From NCBI RefSeq assembly GCF_027484365.1, contig NZ_JAIXTC010000018.1:144286-208285 (forward strand): a stretch of 64,000 nucleotides of DNA, read 5' to 3'. This document shows positions 10,669 to 20,308 of this stretch, piece after piece. A model generated the notes under the pieces. The model had not been told where the DNA came from. It made no database searches and worked only from the letters and a program-made list of their open reading frames with translations. Made by a program: the position numbers and the translations under genes. Source of the DNA: Brevundimonas sp. GTDB taxonomy: Bacteria; Pseudomonadota; Alphaproteobacteria; Caulobacterales; Caulobacteraceae. Within the stretch, counting starts at the first letter, position 1. Each line of letters begins with the position of its first letter.

Positions 10669-12050
10669 CTACCGCCCGCCGCCCGAGATGGCCTGGCCGA
10701 AGCTCTTCCAGCTCAGCTTCACGTCCGACAGCGCACCCGCCCGGAAGGCCCGGCCGGCCAGCCACACCATCAGCAGGGCTACAGCGAACATCCCCGCCAT
10801 CGTGCCGATGATCTCGATCAAAGGCGGCCCGGACGGTGCCCGCGCGCTCATCAGGAAGGGGGTGAAGAAGGGCACCCAGGACAGGAACTTCACCGCCGGC
10901 GCGTCGGGGTTCACCAGGGCCATCTGGACGACCAGCAAGGGCACGACCAGCACCATCATGATCGGCCCCATCAGGGTCTGGGCGTCGCGCGGCGTCTCGC
11001 AGAAGGCGCCGATGGCCGCGAACAGCACGGCGTACATCAGGTAGCCGCCGACGATGTAGCCGATGAAGTAGAAGATCAGCCCGTCGGTCATCAGCACCGA
11101 GGCGACGTCGCCTGCCACCGAGGGGGCCGCCGTGATCAGACCCGCGGCCCCGATCCCGCCCCAGACGACCAGCACCGACAGGGTCAGCATCGCCACACCG
11201 AGGACCTTGCCGGTCAGAATCTCGGTCGCCGAGGCCGACGACAGCAGGACCTCGAGGATCTTGTTCGACTTCTCCTCCATCACGCTGTTCAGCAGGATCG
11301 AGGCGCCGGTGATGATCAGCGACCAGAGGATGAAGCTGAAGGCCAGGCCGATGATGCCGGGCAGGCGGTCCTTGAACGACACCTCACCTCCCCCCGCCGA
11401 GCGTGGCGAAAACACATTGATCTCGGGCCGGAAGTCATCGACGCGCTCGACCACGGCCCGGTCGATCCCGGCCTCGCGCAGGACGGTGTCGCGGTTCTCG
11501 TCGCGCAGGGCCCGGCGCACGAAGTCCTCAACCGTGTCGTCGGTCGCCCGCGCCGCCCAGACTCGGGCCGCCGGTCCCTCGGGGGTCCGGGTCAGGAAGA
11601 CGATCGCGTCGAGTCGCTGCGACTTGGGTGTCTCGTCGGTCAGGTAGCGGCGCACGACCGCCTCCTGGGCCGCGCCCGGCGCGGCGGCGGACAGATCGGC
11701 CGGCGTATCGACGAACCGGATACGCGACCGCGTCATGGAAGCGATCGCGCTTTCGGCGGCTCCGGGAGGTGCTCCCGAGGATTTCGCAGCCTTCTCGGCG
11801 GCTTCCCGGGCGCGTTCGGCCTGACGTTCGGCGTCGGCATCCAGGACGTTTTTCACGGCGGCGGCCAGACCGGTCGCGGCCGGCCCCTCCTCGATCAGGA
11901 CGACCGTCCGCACAGGATCGGCCCCGCGCATCAGAAGGGGCACGGCCCCGCCGAGCACGGCGAACAGGGGGAAGGCCAGCAGGGACAGCCAGAACCCGAC
12001 CGTCTTGGCATAGGCGAGGAACTCGCGCTGGGCGATCAGCAGGATACGGT

Positions 12051-13909: not shown

Positions 13910-15715
13910 CTAGAGCGGCAGGGTGACGGTGATGCCGCCCATGTGGCTGTCGGCATGATCGCCGAAGCGACCGCGATAGCCGACCTCGACCTCGAGCGGA
14001 CCCAGTTCGCCGCTCAGCCCGGCGGAGGCCAGGAACGAGCCGCCGAACGGATCGTCGATGCGACGTGACAGGACCTGCGCCGGGTTGGCGGCGATGCCGA
14101 CCCGCACGGCGTCGGAGCTGTCGTCGAGGCTGTCGCGGTAACCGCCCTCGACGAAGACGGCGAAGCCGCCCATGTCGCCCTCGGCCCGGAGGACGGCCTC
14201 GGCGGTGATGCCCTTCACAGAGCGGTCGCGGTATTCATAGGACGCAGCCGGTCCCTGCTCGACATAGCCGTCGACGTCGGCGTTGGCATAGGTCACGGCG
14301 ATCCGCGGAGAGAGGGCGATCCCGCCGGCGTCGAACCACAGTCCGCCCTGCAGACGCGCACCGGAGCTGAAGCCCCGGGTCGTGCCGGTCTGAACGATCG
14401 GCGCAAGGGCGCTGACGCGTTCAATGTCGTTGTAGTCGTCACTGGCGAGGCCGAAGGCACCGTTGATGAACGCCGAGTCCGAACGCCAGCCTGCGCCGAC
14501 GTCCAGCGCGAGGGTCTGCAGCTGGAAGTTGGTCGGGCCGGCGACGACATCCGCGTTGCGATAGCTGCCGGTCAGGCTGAACCGCATCGTCTCGGTGCCC
14601 GATTCCAGCATCATCTGGGCGCCGTAGCCGTCGGATTCGGCCGCGGCCACCGTGCCCCGCGCGTCGGTCTCGGAGCGGTCATAGAGGCCGCCGATCGAGA
14701 TCGACGTCCCCGCGACCCAGGCCGCATGTCCCGACATCCGGCCGGTCACGCCGTCCAGGGCGTCTTCGCGGTGACGATAGGCGGTTTCGCCCTGCAGGGT
14801 CGAACCCGCCGCCCGGTCGCCGTAGTAGAGGTAGTCGTTGGCGAGGGTCGCCACGAGCCGGTGCCCGGCGGCGGTCGGGTGAACGCCGTCGAAATACAGG
14901 TAGCTGTCCGGGTTGGCGCAGACGGTCACGCCGTTGAAGCAGGCGTCCGTCACATTGGTCAGACCGAAGCGGCCGGGGTTGGCGGCCAGGGTGTCGGACA
15001 CCTTGGCAAGATCGAACAGGATGATGTTGGTGTTGGGCCGGGCTGCGGCGGTCGCCATCAGGGCCGTCTGCAATCCGCTGTTGAATGTGGATCCCGCGTA
15101 ATCTGCCAAAGGCGAGGCCGTTGTCGTGCGGAACTGGGGCGTGATGCCCAGCCGCGGCAGGTTGGTGACCAGGATCGTCCCGGCTCCGCGGCCGGCGATG
15201 TCATTGACCAGGAAATTCATGTCCGCCACCGCAGCGGTCAGGGTCGGCGTAATCGCGGCGGTTGGAGCGGCGCTCGCCCCTGCAGCCGGCAGGGCCTGGA
15301 AGATGTTGTTGGCGCCGCCCAGGACGCTGACCAGATCATTGGGACCGAACACGCCGCCGCGGGCGAGATAGGTCGTCAGCTGCTGGCGCATCCCTGGCGG
15401 GAAGGCGATGTTGTTGTCGGTCCTCGAACCGCCGTAGGCCAGGTTGATGCTGCCGGTGACAGAACCGTTGAAGTTGGCGGCATTAAAGCCCAGCAATTCC
15501 GTGAACACCCGCCCGTTGGAGAAGCGGCCCTGGAAGTAGGGCGGCGACGGCGGCTGGGTCCCGCCCGAGGCGAGATACAGGTTGCCGTTGTCGCTGAGCG
15601 AGTCGCCCAGAACGACCAGGCGGCCGTAGGTCTGGGCCGAGGCGGCGGTGGCGAGCGCGGCGGATGCGGCGAGCGTCAGCGCAGCCAGGGCTGCGCCGCG
15701 AAGATAGCGTGACAT
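13910..15715 (-). CDS. SGNH/GDSL esterase with C-terminal autotransporter beta-barrel (EstA-like)
   Basis: Signal peptide MSRYLRGAALAALTLAASAALATAASAQ; GDSLSDNGN block; DGVHPTAAGH; barrel-like C-terminus. Confidence 0.9.
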   Translation of the reverse strand: MSRYLRGAALAALTLAASAALATAASAQTYGRLVVLGDSLSDNGNLYLASGGTQPPSPPYFQGRFSNGRVFTELLGFNAANFNGSVTGSINLAYGGSRTDNNIAFPPGMRQQLTTYLARGGVFGPNDLVSVLGGANNIFQALPAAGASAAPTAAITPTLTAAVADMNFLVNDIAGRGAGTILVTNLPRLGITPQFRTTTASPLADYAGSTFNSGLQTALMATAAARPNTNIILFDLAKVSDTLAANPGRFGLTNVTDACFNGVTVCANPDSYLYFDGVHPTAAGHRLVATLANDYLYYGDRAAGSTLQGETAYRHREDALDGVTGRMSGHAAWVAGTSISIGGLYDRSETDARGTVAAAESDGYGAQMMLESGTETMRFSLTGSYRNADVVAGPTNFQLQTLALDVGAGWRSDSAFINGAFGLASDDYNDIERVSALAPIVQTGTTRGFSSGARLQGGLWFDAGGIALSPRIAVTYANADVDGYVEQGPAASYEYRDRSVKGITAEAVLRAEGDMGGFAVFVEGGYRDSLDDSSDAVRVGIAANPAQVLSRRIDDPFGGSFLASAGLSGELGPLEVEVGYRGRFGDHADSHMGGITVTLPL

Positions 15716-15806
15716 GGTCTTCCTCCCTCGGTCGTCGATTTCGCGACCGTTGGATGACAGTCTGCGCCCGTTTTGCGGGAGCGCAAGATGCCGCGAGGGA
15801 AGGTTC

Positions 15807-17699
15807 CTAGTGGAGCAGGCGGAACCGCAGCGTTCCGGCCACACTCTTCAGGACCCGGAGAGCCTGGGGATCGTAGTCTCGGTCGACGTCGGTGATGACG
15901 TAGCCGGTGCGTTCATCCGTCTTCAGGTGCTGGCCGAGAATGTTCAGCCCGGCCGCCGACAGCTCCCGGTTCAGCTCGGCCATCACGCCCGGCTGGTTCC
16001 TGTGGATGTGCAGGATGCGGTGGCCGCCGGAGACCTCGGTCAGCTGCACATTCGGCAGGTTGACGCAGAAGGTCGTGTCGCCGCGGTTAAGATAGCCCAG
16101 CAGCCGTTCGGCCGCGAACTCGGCGATGGCCTCCTGGGCCTCCTCCGTTGAGCCGCCGATATGGGGCGTCAGGATGACGTTCTTCAGGCCCATCAGGGGG
16201 CTGTCGAACGGATCGGCGTTGGTCCGGGGCTCCTCGGGGAAGACGTCGAGCGCCGCGCCGCCGATCCGGCCCGAGCCGATCGCCTGGGCGAGGGAGCCGA
16301 CATTGACCACATGGCCGCGCGACAGGTTCAGGAACAGGGTCCCCTCCCGCATCATCTGGAACTGGGCCGGTCCGATCAGATTGGTGTTCTCGCGCCGCCC
16401 GTCGACGTGAAGGGTGACCACATCCGCCTCGGCCAGCAGGGCGTCCAGCGAGCGCATCCGCTTCGCATTGCCGAGCGCCAGCCGTTCCGACAGGTCATGG
16501 AAGATGACCCGCATCCCCAGGGCCTCTGCGAGGACTGACAACTGGGATCCGATCGCGCCGTAGCCCACGATGCCCAGGGTCTTGCCGCGCAGTTCGCGCG
16601 AACCCTCGGCCGACTTGTTCCAACGGCCCTCGTGCATCGCCGCCGACTTGTCGACCACGTCGCGCATCAGGGTGATGGTCAGGCCGATGGCCAGCTCCAC
16701 CACGCTGCGGGTGTTGGAATAGGGCGCGTTGAACACGGCCACGCCCTTCGCCGCCGCAGCGTCCAGGTCGATCTGGTTCGTGCCGATGCAGAAGGCCGCC
16801 ACAGCCAGCAGACGATCCGCCGCCTCCAGCACGGCCTCGGTCACATTGGTCTTGGAGCGGATGCCCAGAACATGGACGCCCTTGATCTTCTCGATCAGGT
16901 CCGCCTCGTCCAGCGCGCCCTTCATCGTTTCAACGGAGTAGCCCGCCTCCTCCAGCCGCTCGACGGCGGCGGGGTGGATGTTTTCCAGCAGCAGCATGCG
17001 GATGCGGCTGCGTGGATAGGACCAGCGCCCGGCCAGACCCTCGGCATGCAAGAGTTCGTCGATGGATTTCGCCTCGCCGTCGGCCACCGCCACGACCTTG
17101 TCCCGACGCGCGATCTCGGTGAAGGCGTAGAACCGGTCCGCAGCCCCGCCCAGCTTGACCTCGGCGTCGTTCCAGCCGTCACCGACCATGACCACCGGAC
17201 CCTTGAGGCCCAAGGCCCTGATCACGATCGGCTTGCCGTTCTCGTGCGACAGGGGGTTGGCGTCGTCGACACCGATCACCACGCCATCGGCGTCGTACAT
17301 CAGGTCATTGCAGATGACCCGATCCGCCGACACGCCCAGGCGCTCGGCTACAGGCGCGATGATCTCGCGGAAACCGCCGGACAGGATGACGACGTTCGCC
17401 GCATTCTCGTTGAAAAAGCGCAGGTTCCGCCGCACCGACGGCGTGCCTTCGTCGAGGATACGGTCGGCGAGAGCCTGAACATGGGTCCTGGTCAGCGGCA
17501 ACAGGGCGAGGCGTGCCCGCAGGGCCTCGCCGAAATCGACTTCTCCGGCCATGGCGCGATCGGTCAGAGACGCGATCTGCGCGCGGATCGGCGTAGCATC
17601 GACATGCCCCTCAAGAGCGATGTCTGCGAGGGCTTCGAGGGTTTCGATGCGCACAAGCGTCGAATCGAAGTCGAAAATCAGCGTCGGAGCGGCGGTCAT
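15807..17699 (-). CDS. Fused phosphoserine phosphatase (SerB-like HAD) and D-3-phosphoglycerate dehydrogenase (SerA-like with ACT)
   Basis: N-terminus LIFDFDSTLVRIETLEALA...VVILSGGFREIIAPVAERL...MVGDGWNDAEVK; C-terminus GIRSKTNVTEAVLEAADRLLAVAAFCIGTNQIDLDAAAAKGVAVFNAPYSNTRSVVELAIG...LGIVGYGAIGSQLSVLAEALGM...HIHRNQPGVMAELNRELSAAGLNILGQHLKTDERTGYVITDVD. Confidence 0.92.
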   Translation of the reverse strand: MTAAPTLIFDFDSTLVRIETLEALADIALEGHVDATPIRAQIASLTDRAMAGEVDFGEALRARLALLPLTRTHVQALADRILDEGTPSVRRNLRFFNENAANVVILSGGFREIIAPVAERLGVSADRVICNDLMYDADGVVIGVDDANPLSHENGKPIVIRALGLKGPVVMVGDGWNDAEVKLGGAADRFYAFTEIARRDKVVAVADGEAKSIDELLHAEGLAGRWSYPRSRIRMLLLENIHPAAVERLEEAGYSVETMKGALDEADLIEKIKGVHVLGIRSKTNVTEAVLEAADRLLAVAAFCIGTNQIDLDAAAAKGVAVFNAPYSNTRSVVELAIGLTITLMRDVVDKSAAMHEGRWNKSAEGSRELRGKTLGIVGYGAIGSQLSVLAEALGMRVIFHDLSERLALGNAKRMRSLDALLAEADVVTLHVDGRRENTNLIGPAQFQMMREGTLFLNLSRGHVVNVGSLAQAIGSGRIGGAALDVFPEEPRTNADPFDSPLMGLKNVILTPHIGGSTEEAQEAIAEFAAERLLGYLNRGDTTFCVNLPNVQLTEVSGGHRILHIHRNQPGVMAELNRELSAAGLNILGQHLKTDERTGYVITDVDRDYDPQALRVLKSVAGTLRFRLLH

Positions 17700-17748: not shown

Positions 17749-19194
17749 TTAGAGCCCCGTCAGGCGACGCACCCGGCTGTCCGGCCGTCGGCTTTCCAGA
17801 GCGGCCGCGCCGATGGCCGCTGCGATCGTGGCCACGGCCAGCAGGGCGCCGCCTTCACGGGCGTGGTCCCTGGCGTAGCGACCGGCGTCGCCGGCATAGC
17901 GGCGGGCCGAGCGACCGGTTTCTTCGGCGTAGCGACGGGCTTCGCGGGTGTACTTCCGGCGCTGCCTGTCCGACACCGCCCGCTGTCCGCGCTTCAGAAG
18001 CTTCTTCGCCTGATGACGGGCGTCATCGCCCAGATCTCCGGCGCGGTCGCTGACCTCCCCGGCCCGCTCGGTCAGGCCGCGCGAGATGTCATCGAACCTG
18101 TGACGCAGGGCTTCTGCGTCGATCCAGCCCCGGGGATCGAACCGGTCGCGCAGATCCTCGAACCGTCGCGGCCCCGTCCGCTGGGTCAGCAGATAGGTCA
18201 CAAGCGCCGCCGTGGCGACCAGGGCGAGTGAGCCTGCGGCATAGCCGGGGTGTTTGCGGACTTCGGCCAGGGCGCTGAACTGTCGGACCATCGGATAGTG
18301 AACCTCTTCGTCGAGGCCGTCGTCGGTCGGGTCATAGAGCCCGTCGTCATACGGCTGGTAGGCGGAACCCCTGTCCCGCATGAGGCTAGGAGCGAACCGG
18401 GCGAAGAGAGGTTCCGCCAGGCCCGGCAGGAGGGCGTAGAAAGACGCAATGAGCCGCCCTCCTCCGCCGACGGTGATTTCCCGGATCGGATGGGAAGCGC
18501 ACCACAGGACGGTGTCGGCGACGACATGGGTCGCATAGACCGGCTGGGGGTTCTGGACCGCATAGCCGGTCAGGTTGCGGGCGTGTTTCGGATAGGGGGT
18601 ATCCACCGCTGCGGGCTTGACCAGGCTGACGGCGACCGACGCACCCTCGCGCATCAGCTCCATGCGGAAGGCGTTGGTGAACCCCTTCACCGCGTGCTTC
18701 GACGCCGAATAGACGCCCTGCACCGGCATGGGCGCATCGCCCAGAACCGAGCCGACGTTGATGATCGTCCCGCCATCCGGACGCGCCCTCAGATGGTCAG
18801 CGGCCACAAGGGAACCGTTCACGACGCCCCAGTAGTTGGTCTCGAACAGCTGGTGCTGGTCCTCCAGCGTCGTCTCGCGGATCGGGCCGTAGATCGAGAC
18901 GCCGGCGTTGTTCACCCAGGTGTCGAAACCGCCGAACAGCCGCCGGCACTTGTCCGCCGCTTCGGCGAGGGCGTCATAATCGGCGACGTCGGCGACGGCA
19001 TAGGCGACCCGCGCCCCCTCCTGCTGCAGCTCCTCGACCAGGGCCCTCAGGTCGCTCTCGCCGCGCGCGATCAGGAAGACGCAGGCGCCGGTCCTGGCCG
19101 CCCGGCGGGCGGTGGCCAGCCCTATGCCGGACGTGGCGCCGGTAATGACAATGGCCTGCTGGCTGACGGGTTTCAGATTCGGCTTGGCGGGCAT
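17749..19194 (-). CDS. SDR family oxidoreductase with C-terminal extension
   Basis: IVITGATSGIGLATARRAARTGACVFLIARGE...YSASKHAVKGFTNAFRMEL; Arg/Tyr/Ala-rich C-terminal tail. Confidence 0.85.
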   Translation of the reverse strand: MPAKPNLKPVSQQAIVITGATSGIGLATARRAARTGACVFLIARGESDLRALVEELQQEGARVAYAVADVADYDALAEAADKCRRLFGGFDTWVNNAGVSIYGPIRETTLEDQHQLFETNYWGVVNGSLVAADHLRARPDGGTIINVGSVLGDAPMPVQGVYSASKHAVKGFTNAFRMELMREGASVAVSLVKPAAVDTPYPKHARNLTGYAVQNPQPVYATHVVADTVLWCASHPIREITVGGGGRLIASFYALLPGLAEPLFARFAPSLMRDRGSAYQPYDDGLYDPTDDGLDEEVHYPMVRQFSALAEVRKHPGYAAGSLALVATAALVTYLLTQRTGPRRFEDLRDRFDPRGWIDAEALRHRFDDISRGLTERAGEVSDRAGDLGDDARHQAKKLLKRGQRAVSDRQRRKYTREARRYAEETGRSARRYAGDAGRYARDHAREGGALLAVATIAAAIGAAALESRRPDSRVRRLTGL

Positions 19195-19366
19195 GGGACA
19201 GGCTTTCGTCGGTGTCGGCATCGAGAACGGGCGGACCGTGCGCCCGGTTGCGACAGATAGCACGCCAGCGCGTCCGCGCGAGACGACAGGCGATCGCCCT
19301 TACCAACCGCCCCATGACTTCCTATCTTGCGCCGTTCTCGACATCTTCGCCTGCTAAGGACCCGCC

Positions 19367-20308
19367 GTGACCGATCACGAGCTCCCCGCCGTTTCCGCGC
19401 CGACCGACAACCTCGCCGCCGCCTTCCAGATCGAGGGCTGGCCCGTGCGAGGCCGCCTCGTACGCCTCGGCGACGCGATCGACACGATCCTGTCCGCCCA
19501 TGCCTATCCGGAGCCGGTCGCGGCCTTGCTGGGCGAGGCCTGCGCGCTCGCCGCCCTGGTCGGGTCCGCTCTCAAATTTGAGGGCCGTCTGATCGTCCAG
19601 GCCCAGGGCGACGGTCCGGTGAAATATGTGGTCGCCGACTACGACACGGACGGCCATCTGCGCGGCTACTGCCGTTTCGACGAGGACGAGGTCGCGGCCG
19701 CCTCCTCCGGTTTCGCGCGTCCCGGCGCGAAGACCCTGCTGGGCCAGGGCGTCTTCGTGATGACCCTGGATCGCGGTCCCGACTTCGAGCGCACCCAGGG
19801 CATCACCCCGATCGAGGGCGAGAGCCTGTCGCTGGCGGCCGAACACTATTTCGTCCAGTCCGAGCAGATCCCGACCAAGGTCCGCCTCGCCGTCGGCTCC
19901 GTCACCGACGAGACCGGCACGACCTGGCGTGCGGGCGGTGCCCTGATCCAGTTGATTGCTGCTGACGACGCGCGCGGTTCGACGGAGGAGGTGTGGGACC
20001 GGACCCGCGCCCTGTTCCAGACCCTGGCGGACGACGAACTGGTCGATCCGACCATCACGCCCGAGACACTGCTGTTCCGTCTGTTTCACGAAGACGGCGT
20101 GCGGCTGGAGGACGCCCGCGCCCTGAAGGCCCGGTGCCGCTGCTCCGCCGATCGTATCAGCGCCGTCCTCGCCTCTTTCGGGCCGGAAGAACGCGCCGAA
20201 ATGGTCGAGCCCGACGGCAAGATCCATGTCACCTGCGAATACTGCGCGACGGTCTACAAGCTGGAGCCGGACGTGGTGGAGGCCCAGGCAGAAGCGTCCG
20301 CTCAGTAA
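19367..20308 (+). CDS. hslO: Hsp33 family redox-regulated chaperone
   Basis: ILSAHAYPEPVAALLGEACALAALVGSALKFEGRLIVQAQGDGPVKYVVADY; zinc motifs CRC and CEYC. Confidence 0.93.
   Translation: MTDHELPAVSAPTDNLAAAFQIEGWPVRGRLVRLGDAIDTILSAHAYPEPVAALLGEACALAALVGSALKFEGRLIVQAQGDGPVKYVVADYDTDGHLRGYCRFDEDEVAAASSGFARPGAKTLLGQGVFVMTLDRGPDFERTQGITPIEGESLSLAAEHYFVQSEQIPTKVRLAVGSVTDETGTTWRAGGALIQLIAADDARGSTEEVWDRTRALFQTLADDELVDPTITPETLLFRLFHEDGVRLEDARALKARCRCSADRISAVLASFGPEERAEMVEPDGKIHVTCEYCATVYKLEPDVVEAQAEASAQ

Follow-up and report, generated by a model that had tools for sequence, protein, structure and literature searches.

The window, a stretch of 64,000 nucleotides from a Brevundimonas genome, carries one gene in which an N-terminal phosphatase of the HAD superfamily is joined to a complete E. 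coli-type SerA. To judge from its sequence, the product is very probably a bifunctional serine-biosynthesis enzyme that carries out steps 1 and 3 of the pathway and takes the place of canonical SerA and SerB. A preliminary description of this DNA had reported a single uninterrupted open reading frame of 630 codons at this site, and we recover the same frame; it lies on the minus strand, which that description had left unstated, begins with ATG and contains no internal stops (Table 1).

Table 1. Positions of the fused gene, its parts and its neighbors in the window
Feature	Position	Strand	Remarks
Fused phosphoserine phosphatase–phosphoglycerate dehydrogenase gene	15807..17699	(-)	630 codons plus stop; ORF, Pfam and NCBIfam evidence; same in dozens of genomes
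HAD-IB phosphatase half, N-terminal, human-PSPH type	17055..17699	(-)	Residues 1–215
Junction (LLHAEGLAGRWSYPRSR)	17004..17054	(-)	Residues 216–232; short; AlphaFold2 confidence dips
SerA substrate- and NAD-binding domains	16059..17003	(-)	Residues 233–547
C-terminal ACT domain	15810..16022	(-)	Residues 560–630; serine-effector residues H566, N568, N586
SDR-family gene, upstream	17749..19263	(-)	49 bp from the fusion; context only
Hsp33 gene	19367..20308	(+)	Most constant neighbor of the fusion; context only

Pfam places a HAD domain at residues 8–179, a 2-Hacid_dh domain at 236–547 with its NAD-binding domain at 339–515, and an ACT-like domain at 562–623; the SerA part, ACT included, spans about residues 233–630. 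The DFDSTLV, SGGFREI and GDGWNDAEVK motifs, from which an N-terminal HAD phosphatase had been recognized, are present, and this half exceeds the cut-off of the TIGR01488 HAD-IB model (62.1 bits; cut-off 45). The further claim of a full E. coli-type SerA ending in an ACT domain agrees with the NF008759 model, which matches residues 225–630 at 631.5 bits (cut-off 404). Two other models remain below their cut-offs, TIGR01327-type PGDH at 264.5 bits (cut-off 454) and TIGR00338 SerB at 87.2 bits (cut-off 144); because the latter cut-off is curated and not reached, the HAD half is not filed as a canonical SerB. An AlphaFold2 model of the fusion has a mean pLDDT of 89 and a pTM of 0.78, with a drop in confidence near junction residues 221–230, and Foldseek searches with the whole model returned E. 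coli SerA structures, serine-bound forms among them, as the top matches. An internal start at M235 that would release free SerA was considered and ruled out, as other fusions have I, V or F in place of this Met.

The architecture recurs well beyond the window. An exact-peptide scan of GTDB species genomes found the full fusion at 31 of 33 loci, 30 of them in Brevundimonas or in records labeled Caulobacteraceae, Caulobacterales or Alphaproteobacteria and one in a Burkholderiales MAG (52% identity). Within the order, 34/298 genomes encode it (33 of the 34 sampled from Brevundimonas and one from a sister genus, at 61% identity), and 38 genomes of the family f4 encode an unfused E. coli-type SerA. 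Around the Burkholderiales MAG the fusion occurs in 8/300 genomes, including the MAG itself and Aquella oligotrophica, at 46–52% identity; the range outside Brevundimonas as a whole is 46–61%. Among 399 genomes across the phylum it was seen in the window's genus only. The architecture search that had been proposed for Caulobacterales and other taxa places the fusion in Brevundimonas, one sister-genus genome and an Aquella-like group. That sequencing or assembly wrongly merged a pair of neighboring genes, a concern raised in the preliminary description, has a negligible probability: the rarity of the architecture is all that favors it, and the independent same-length copies in dozens of genomes, single-contig genomes included, exclude an assembly fusion.

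Beyond Pseudomonadota, coverage came from the exact-peptide scan alone, and the fusion may occur more widely than the sampled phyla show. SerA proteins of comparable length may exist in some Bacteroidota. Plasmid records gave 106 matches, none covering 80% or more of the query. A 712-codon open frame in Nigerium (L041) was tried as a further fusion and rejected; the extension overlaps an ABC-transporter gene and the SerA is unfused. As for gene neighborhoods, the SDR-family gene also precedes the fusion in most Brevundimonas, and the Hsp33 gene adjoins it in the sister genus too. A GDSL-esterase autotransporter-like gene (window 13910–15844) lies directly downstream in most Brevundimonas and has no obvious link to serine. 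L039 and the window both have a gamma-glutamyltranspeptidase gene close to the fusion; this was taken as a coincidence, given 23% identity and the absence of the gene from other Aquella-like loci.

The fusion appears to be the only source of both steps that family models can recognize in Brevundimonas and the Aquella-like lineage. The window's genome is 100% complete, and searches with the fusion protein, TIGR00338 and TIGR01327 found no second SerA or SerB over the family cut-offs, and so none of the standalone serA and serB genes that the preliminary description had allowed for; below the cut-offs were two 2-hydroxyacid dehydrogenases of general type and weakly matching HAD fragments. We extended the comparison to 20 genomes, namely ten with the fusion, seven Caulobacterales without any E. 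coli-type SerA, two of family f4, and G111, a Brevundimonas discussed below. All ten fusion genomes are without a canonical SerB or a TIGR01327-type SerA over cut-off, whereas all seven Caulobacterales without E. coli-type SerA have both (SerB at 176–223 bits and SerA at 650–715 bits). This complementary distribution indicates that the fusion stands in for both canonical genes. The two f4 genomes contain unfused relatives of both fusion halves. These f4 genes (L124, L125), a human-PSPH-type phosphatase and an E. coli-type SerA, occupy separate chromosomal sites in G255 and different contigs in G044.

The middle enzyme of the pathway, SerC, was found in 25/25 genomes tested. As had been noted earlier, its gene is outside the window: it is on another contig (G000:C21:28958–30076; the window is on C15), near purA and without serA. 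By comparison, serC adjoins serA in four non-fusion Caulobacteraceae (e.g., in G022, with serC at C39:118205–119320 and serA at 116537–118096). SerC family-model scores are 450–507 bits in Brevundimonas versus about 690–703 bits in Caulobacteraceae with the serC–serA pair, and the lower score suggests that Brevundimonas SerC evolved faster after serA was lost.

A single Brevundimonas genome provides a natural loss. G111 is 99% complete and encodes SerC, and the fusion, SerA and SerB are all absent. Its syntenic site (L159, G111:C2:134500–153500; junction near 11005–11030) keeps the PhoB, Hsp33 and SDR neighbors, with no detectable remnant of the fusion. Since G111 lacks the fusion as well as SerA and SerB, it is predicted to be auxotrophic, requiring serine or glycine. 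SerC has a second role in pyridoxal phosphate synthesis, and the retention of serC fits this role. G111 can be regarded as a natural double knockout in which the fused gene is gone and serC is kept.

Among solved structures, the phosphatase half is closest to human phosphoserine phosphatase (PSPH; 2.5e-22), and bacterial SerB structures rank behind. The fused HAD halves cluster in a single clade (96/97) of a maximum-likelihood tree; this clade adjoins the unfused HADs of family f4 and is parted from Caulobacter-type SerB by a long branch. The preliminary description of a SerB–SerA fusion is well supported in its pairing of the last and first enzymes, but the ‘SerB’ is of the human-PSPH type and far from Caulobacter SerB. 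Loss of HAD catalytic residues, against which that description had cautioned, is not seen: the HAD-IB motifs (DxDST, Ser, Lys and GDGxxD) occur in 28/28 fusions, and D10, D12, E19, R63, S107, K156, D174 and D178 of the fusion, equivalent to PSPH D20, D22, E29, R65, S109, K158, D179 and D183, are invariant in the same set. E19 and R63 correspond to the substrate residues Glu29 and Arg65, and the counterparts of PSPH S23 and T24 are likewise identical in all 28 proteins. The G110 position varies (G/S/A/N), as does that of F58. The half is under purifying selection (dN/dS 0.04–0.25) and evolves faster than the SerA half.

Because the TIGR00338 score is below cut-off, the assignment of substrate draws on PSPH homology and on these residues, from which we infer specificity for phosphoserine. 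The main rival reading is that the substrate of the HAD half is a different phosphate ester, e.g., histidinol phosphate, and that an unrecognized enzyme supplies phosphoserine phosphatase activity. The low SerB model score would fit this, as would a precedent: in a study of mutant fitness data from several bacteria, annotated phosphoserine phosphatases were proposed to act as histidinol-phosphate phosphatases (PMC5764234). We nonetheless give this rival little probability, as human PSPH is the nearest solved relative, no further SerB passes the cut-off, the covalent tie to SerA favors phosphoserine, and the equivalents of R65 and E29 never vary among the 28 fusions. In PSPH, R65 contacts the serine carboxylate, a group absent from histidinol phosphate, and the conservation of this carboxylate-binding Arg argues against histidinol phosphate as the substrate. 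Less probable still is a HAD half that is catalytically retired, or that serves SerA in a structural or regulatory capacity only. Its faster evolution and the variable G110-equivalent residue are in keeping with such a fate; against it, the catalytic Asp, Ser and Lys and the substrate Arg and Glu are the same in every fusion of two distant lineages, dN/dS is well under 1, and no alternative SerB was found over cut-off.

The dehydrogenase half is more conserved, with dN/dS of 0.01–0.08 (purifying selection), and its best solved relatives are bacterial SerA proteins, including that of E. coli. We use the residue roles generally known for E. coli SerA. Residues R281, W360, K362, R461, E490 and H513 of the fusion match SerA R60, W139, K141, R240, E269 and H292, and the serine-effector residues listed in Table 1 match H344, N346 and N364, each in 28/28 fusions. 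As all of the effector residues are conserved, serine feedback on the dehydrogenase through the ACT domain is likely; this conservation supports putative feedback on the SerA half itself only. Codon 283 of the fusion (window 16851–16853) aligns with Arg62 of E. coli SerA, an active-site anion-binding residue; it encodes Lys in 28/28 fusions, and the aligned residue is Arg in 7/7 unfused SerA proteins checked. This Lys, the variable G110 position, the faster evolution of the HAD half, the low TIGR00338 score and the missing gene in G111 count against the bifunctional reading.

The nearest unfused relative seen for the SerA half is from Nigerium (Actinomycetota). The SerA of Nigerium massiliense (L041:4947–6191) is unfused, is 57–58% identical to the SerA half and has derived residues in common with it (the VDGR loop). 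In the SerA tree, the SerA halves and this protein occupy one branch (100/100). The Nigerium protein could be a relative of the pre-fusion gene or a former fusion that lost its HAD half secondarily. Its position bears on whether the halves were joined separately in Brevundimonas and the Aquella-like lineage, or once with subsequent horizontal transfer. It branches basally to the two fusion clades, and the fusions are monophyletic in just 27% of SerA bootstrap trees, both of which would suit independent origins. We nevertheless consider two origins distinctly unlikely: the HAD halves form a single supported clade, a single SerA origin is not rejected (p-AU 0.36), the junction position and the order of the halves are identical, and K283 and H463 are common to the SerA halves and absent from Nigerium.

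In the proposed mechanism, the C-terminal half, an E. coli-type PGDH, would oxidize 3-phosphoglycerate to 3-phosphohydroxypyruvate under feedback inhibition by serine at the ACT domain; separate SerC would then perform the transamination between the two fusion-catalyzed steps, and the N-terminal half would hydrolyse O-phosphoserine to serine. The first step of the pathway is thermodynamically unfavorable and the last is irreversible. The likeliest benefit would be fixed 1:1 expression and co-location, by which the irreversible last step could pull the unfavorable first one, and we infer that equal dosage and co-location are the simplest benefit of fusing. Coupling between the committed step and the last one, as suggested at the outset, is possible, as is the alternative offered with it, ACT control of the phosphatase. 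A more elaborate proposal is that the fusion scaffolds a complex in which free SerC docks between the halves, phosphohydroxypyruvate and phosphoserine are handed over locally, and ACT-bound serine controls both activities. We regard this as rather unlikely; if true, a single allosteric switch would govern the first and last steps.

The components of this protein are known; what is new is the way they are joined, together with the near-fixation of this fusion in a genus and its presence in Aquella-like bacteria. To our knowledge, fusions of non-consecutive enzymes in a short linear pathway are unusual. The fusion lends itself to a clean test of whether flux or control changes when a committed step under feedback regulation is tied to a final, irreversible one. 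It also has a practical consequence for annotation. With a fused HAD half of the human-PSPH type, the TIGR00338 cut-off calls no SerB in Brevundimonas or Aquella, and this miss could cause false calls of serine auxotrophy. In a searched literature that is thin in subscription journals we found no paper describing a SerB–SerA fusion, nor does one come up in the accessible portions of GapMind and Price 2018; an earlier description may exist.

Comparison with known systems sets the fusion apart at several levels. It resembles E. coli-type SerA (PRK11790/NF008759; PDB 1psd, 1yba) in its full-length match, domain order, about 50% identity, catalytic Arg/Glu/His and serine-effector His/Asn/Asn, and differs in its N-terminal phosphatase, the Lys at R62 and a VDGR loop in place of VPE/VPD. 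Human PSPH (PDB 1nnl, 6hyy) is the best solved match to the HAD half, with catalytic and substrate residues that align, but the HAD of the fusion is joined to SerA, varies at the G110 position and is separated by a long branch. The canonical SerB (TIGR00338) of Caulobacter relatives shares the HAD-IB superfamily and the presumed reaction, whereas the HAD of the fusion falls below that family's cut-off, is distant in the tree and replaces SerB in fusion genomes. A bifunctional PGDH–phosphoserine aminotransferase is known in oomycetes (PMC2705460); it too is a serine-pathway fusion involving PGDH, but it is eukaryotic, has another partner and joins steps 1 and 2 rather than 1 and 3.
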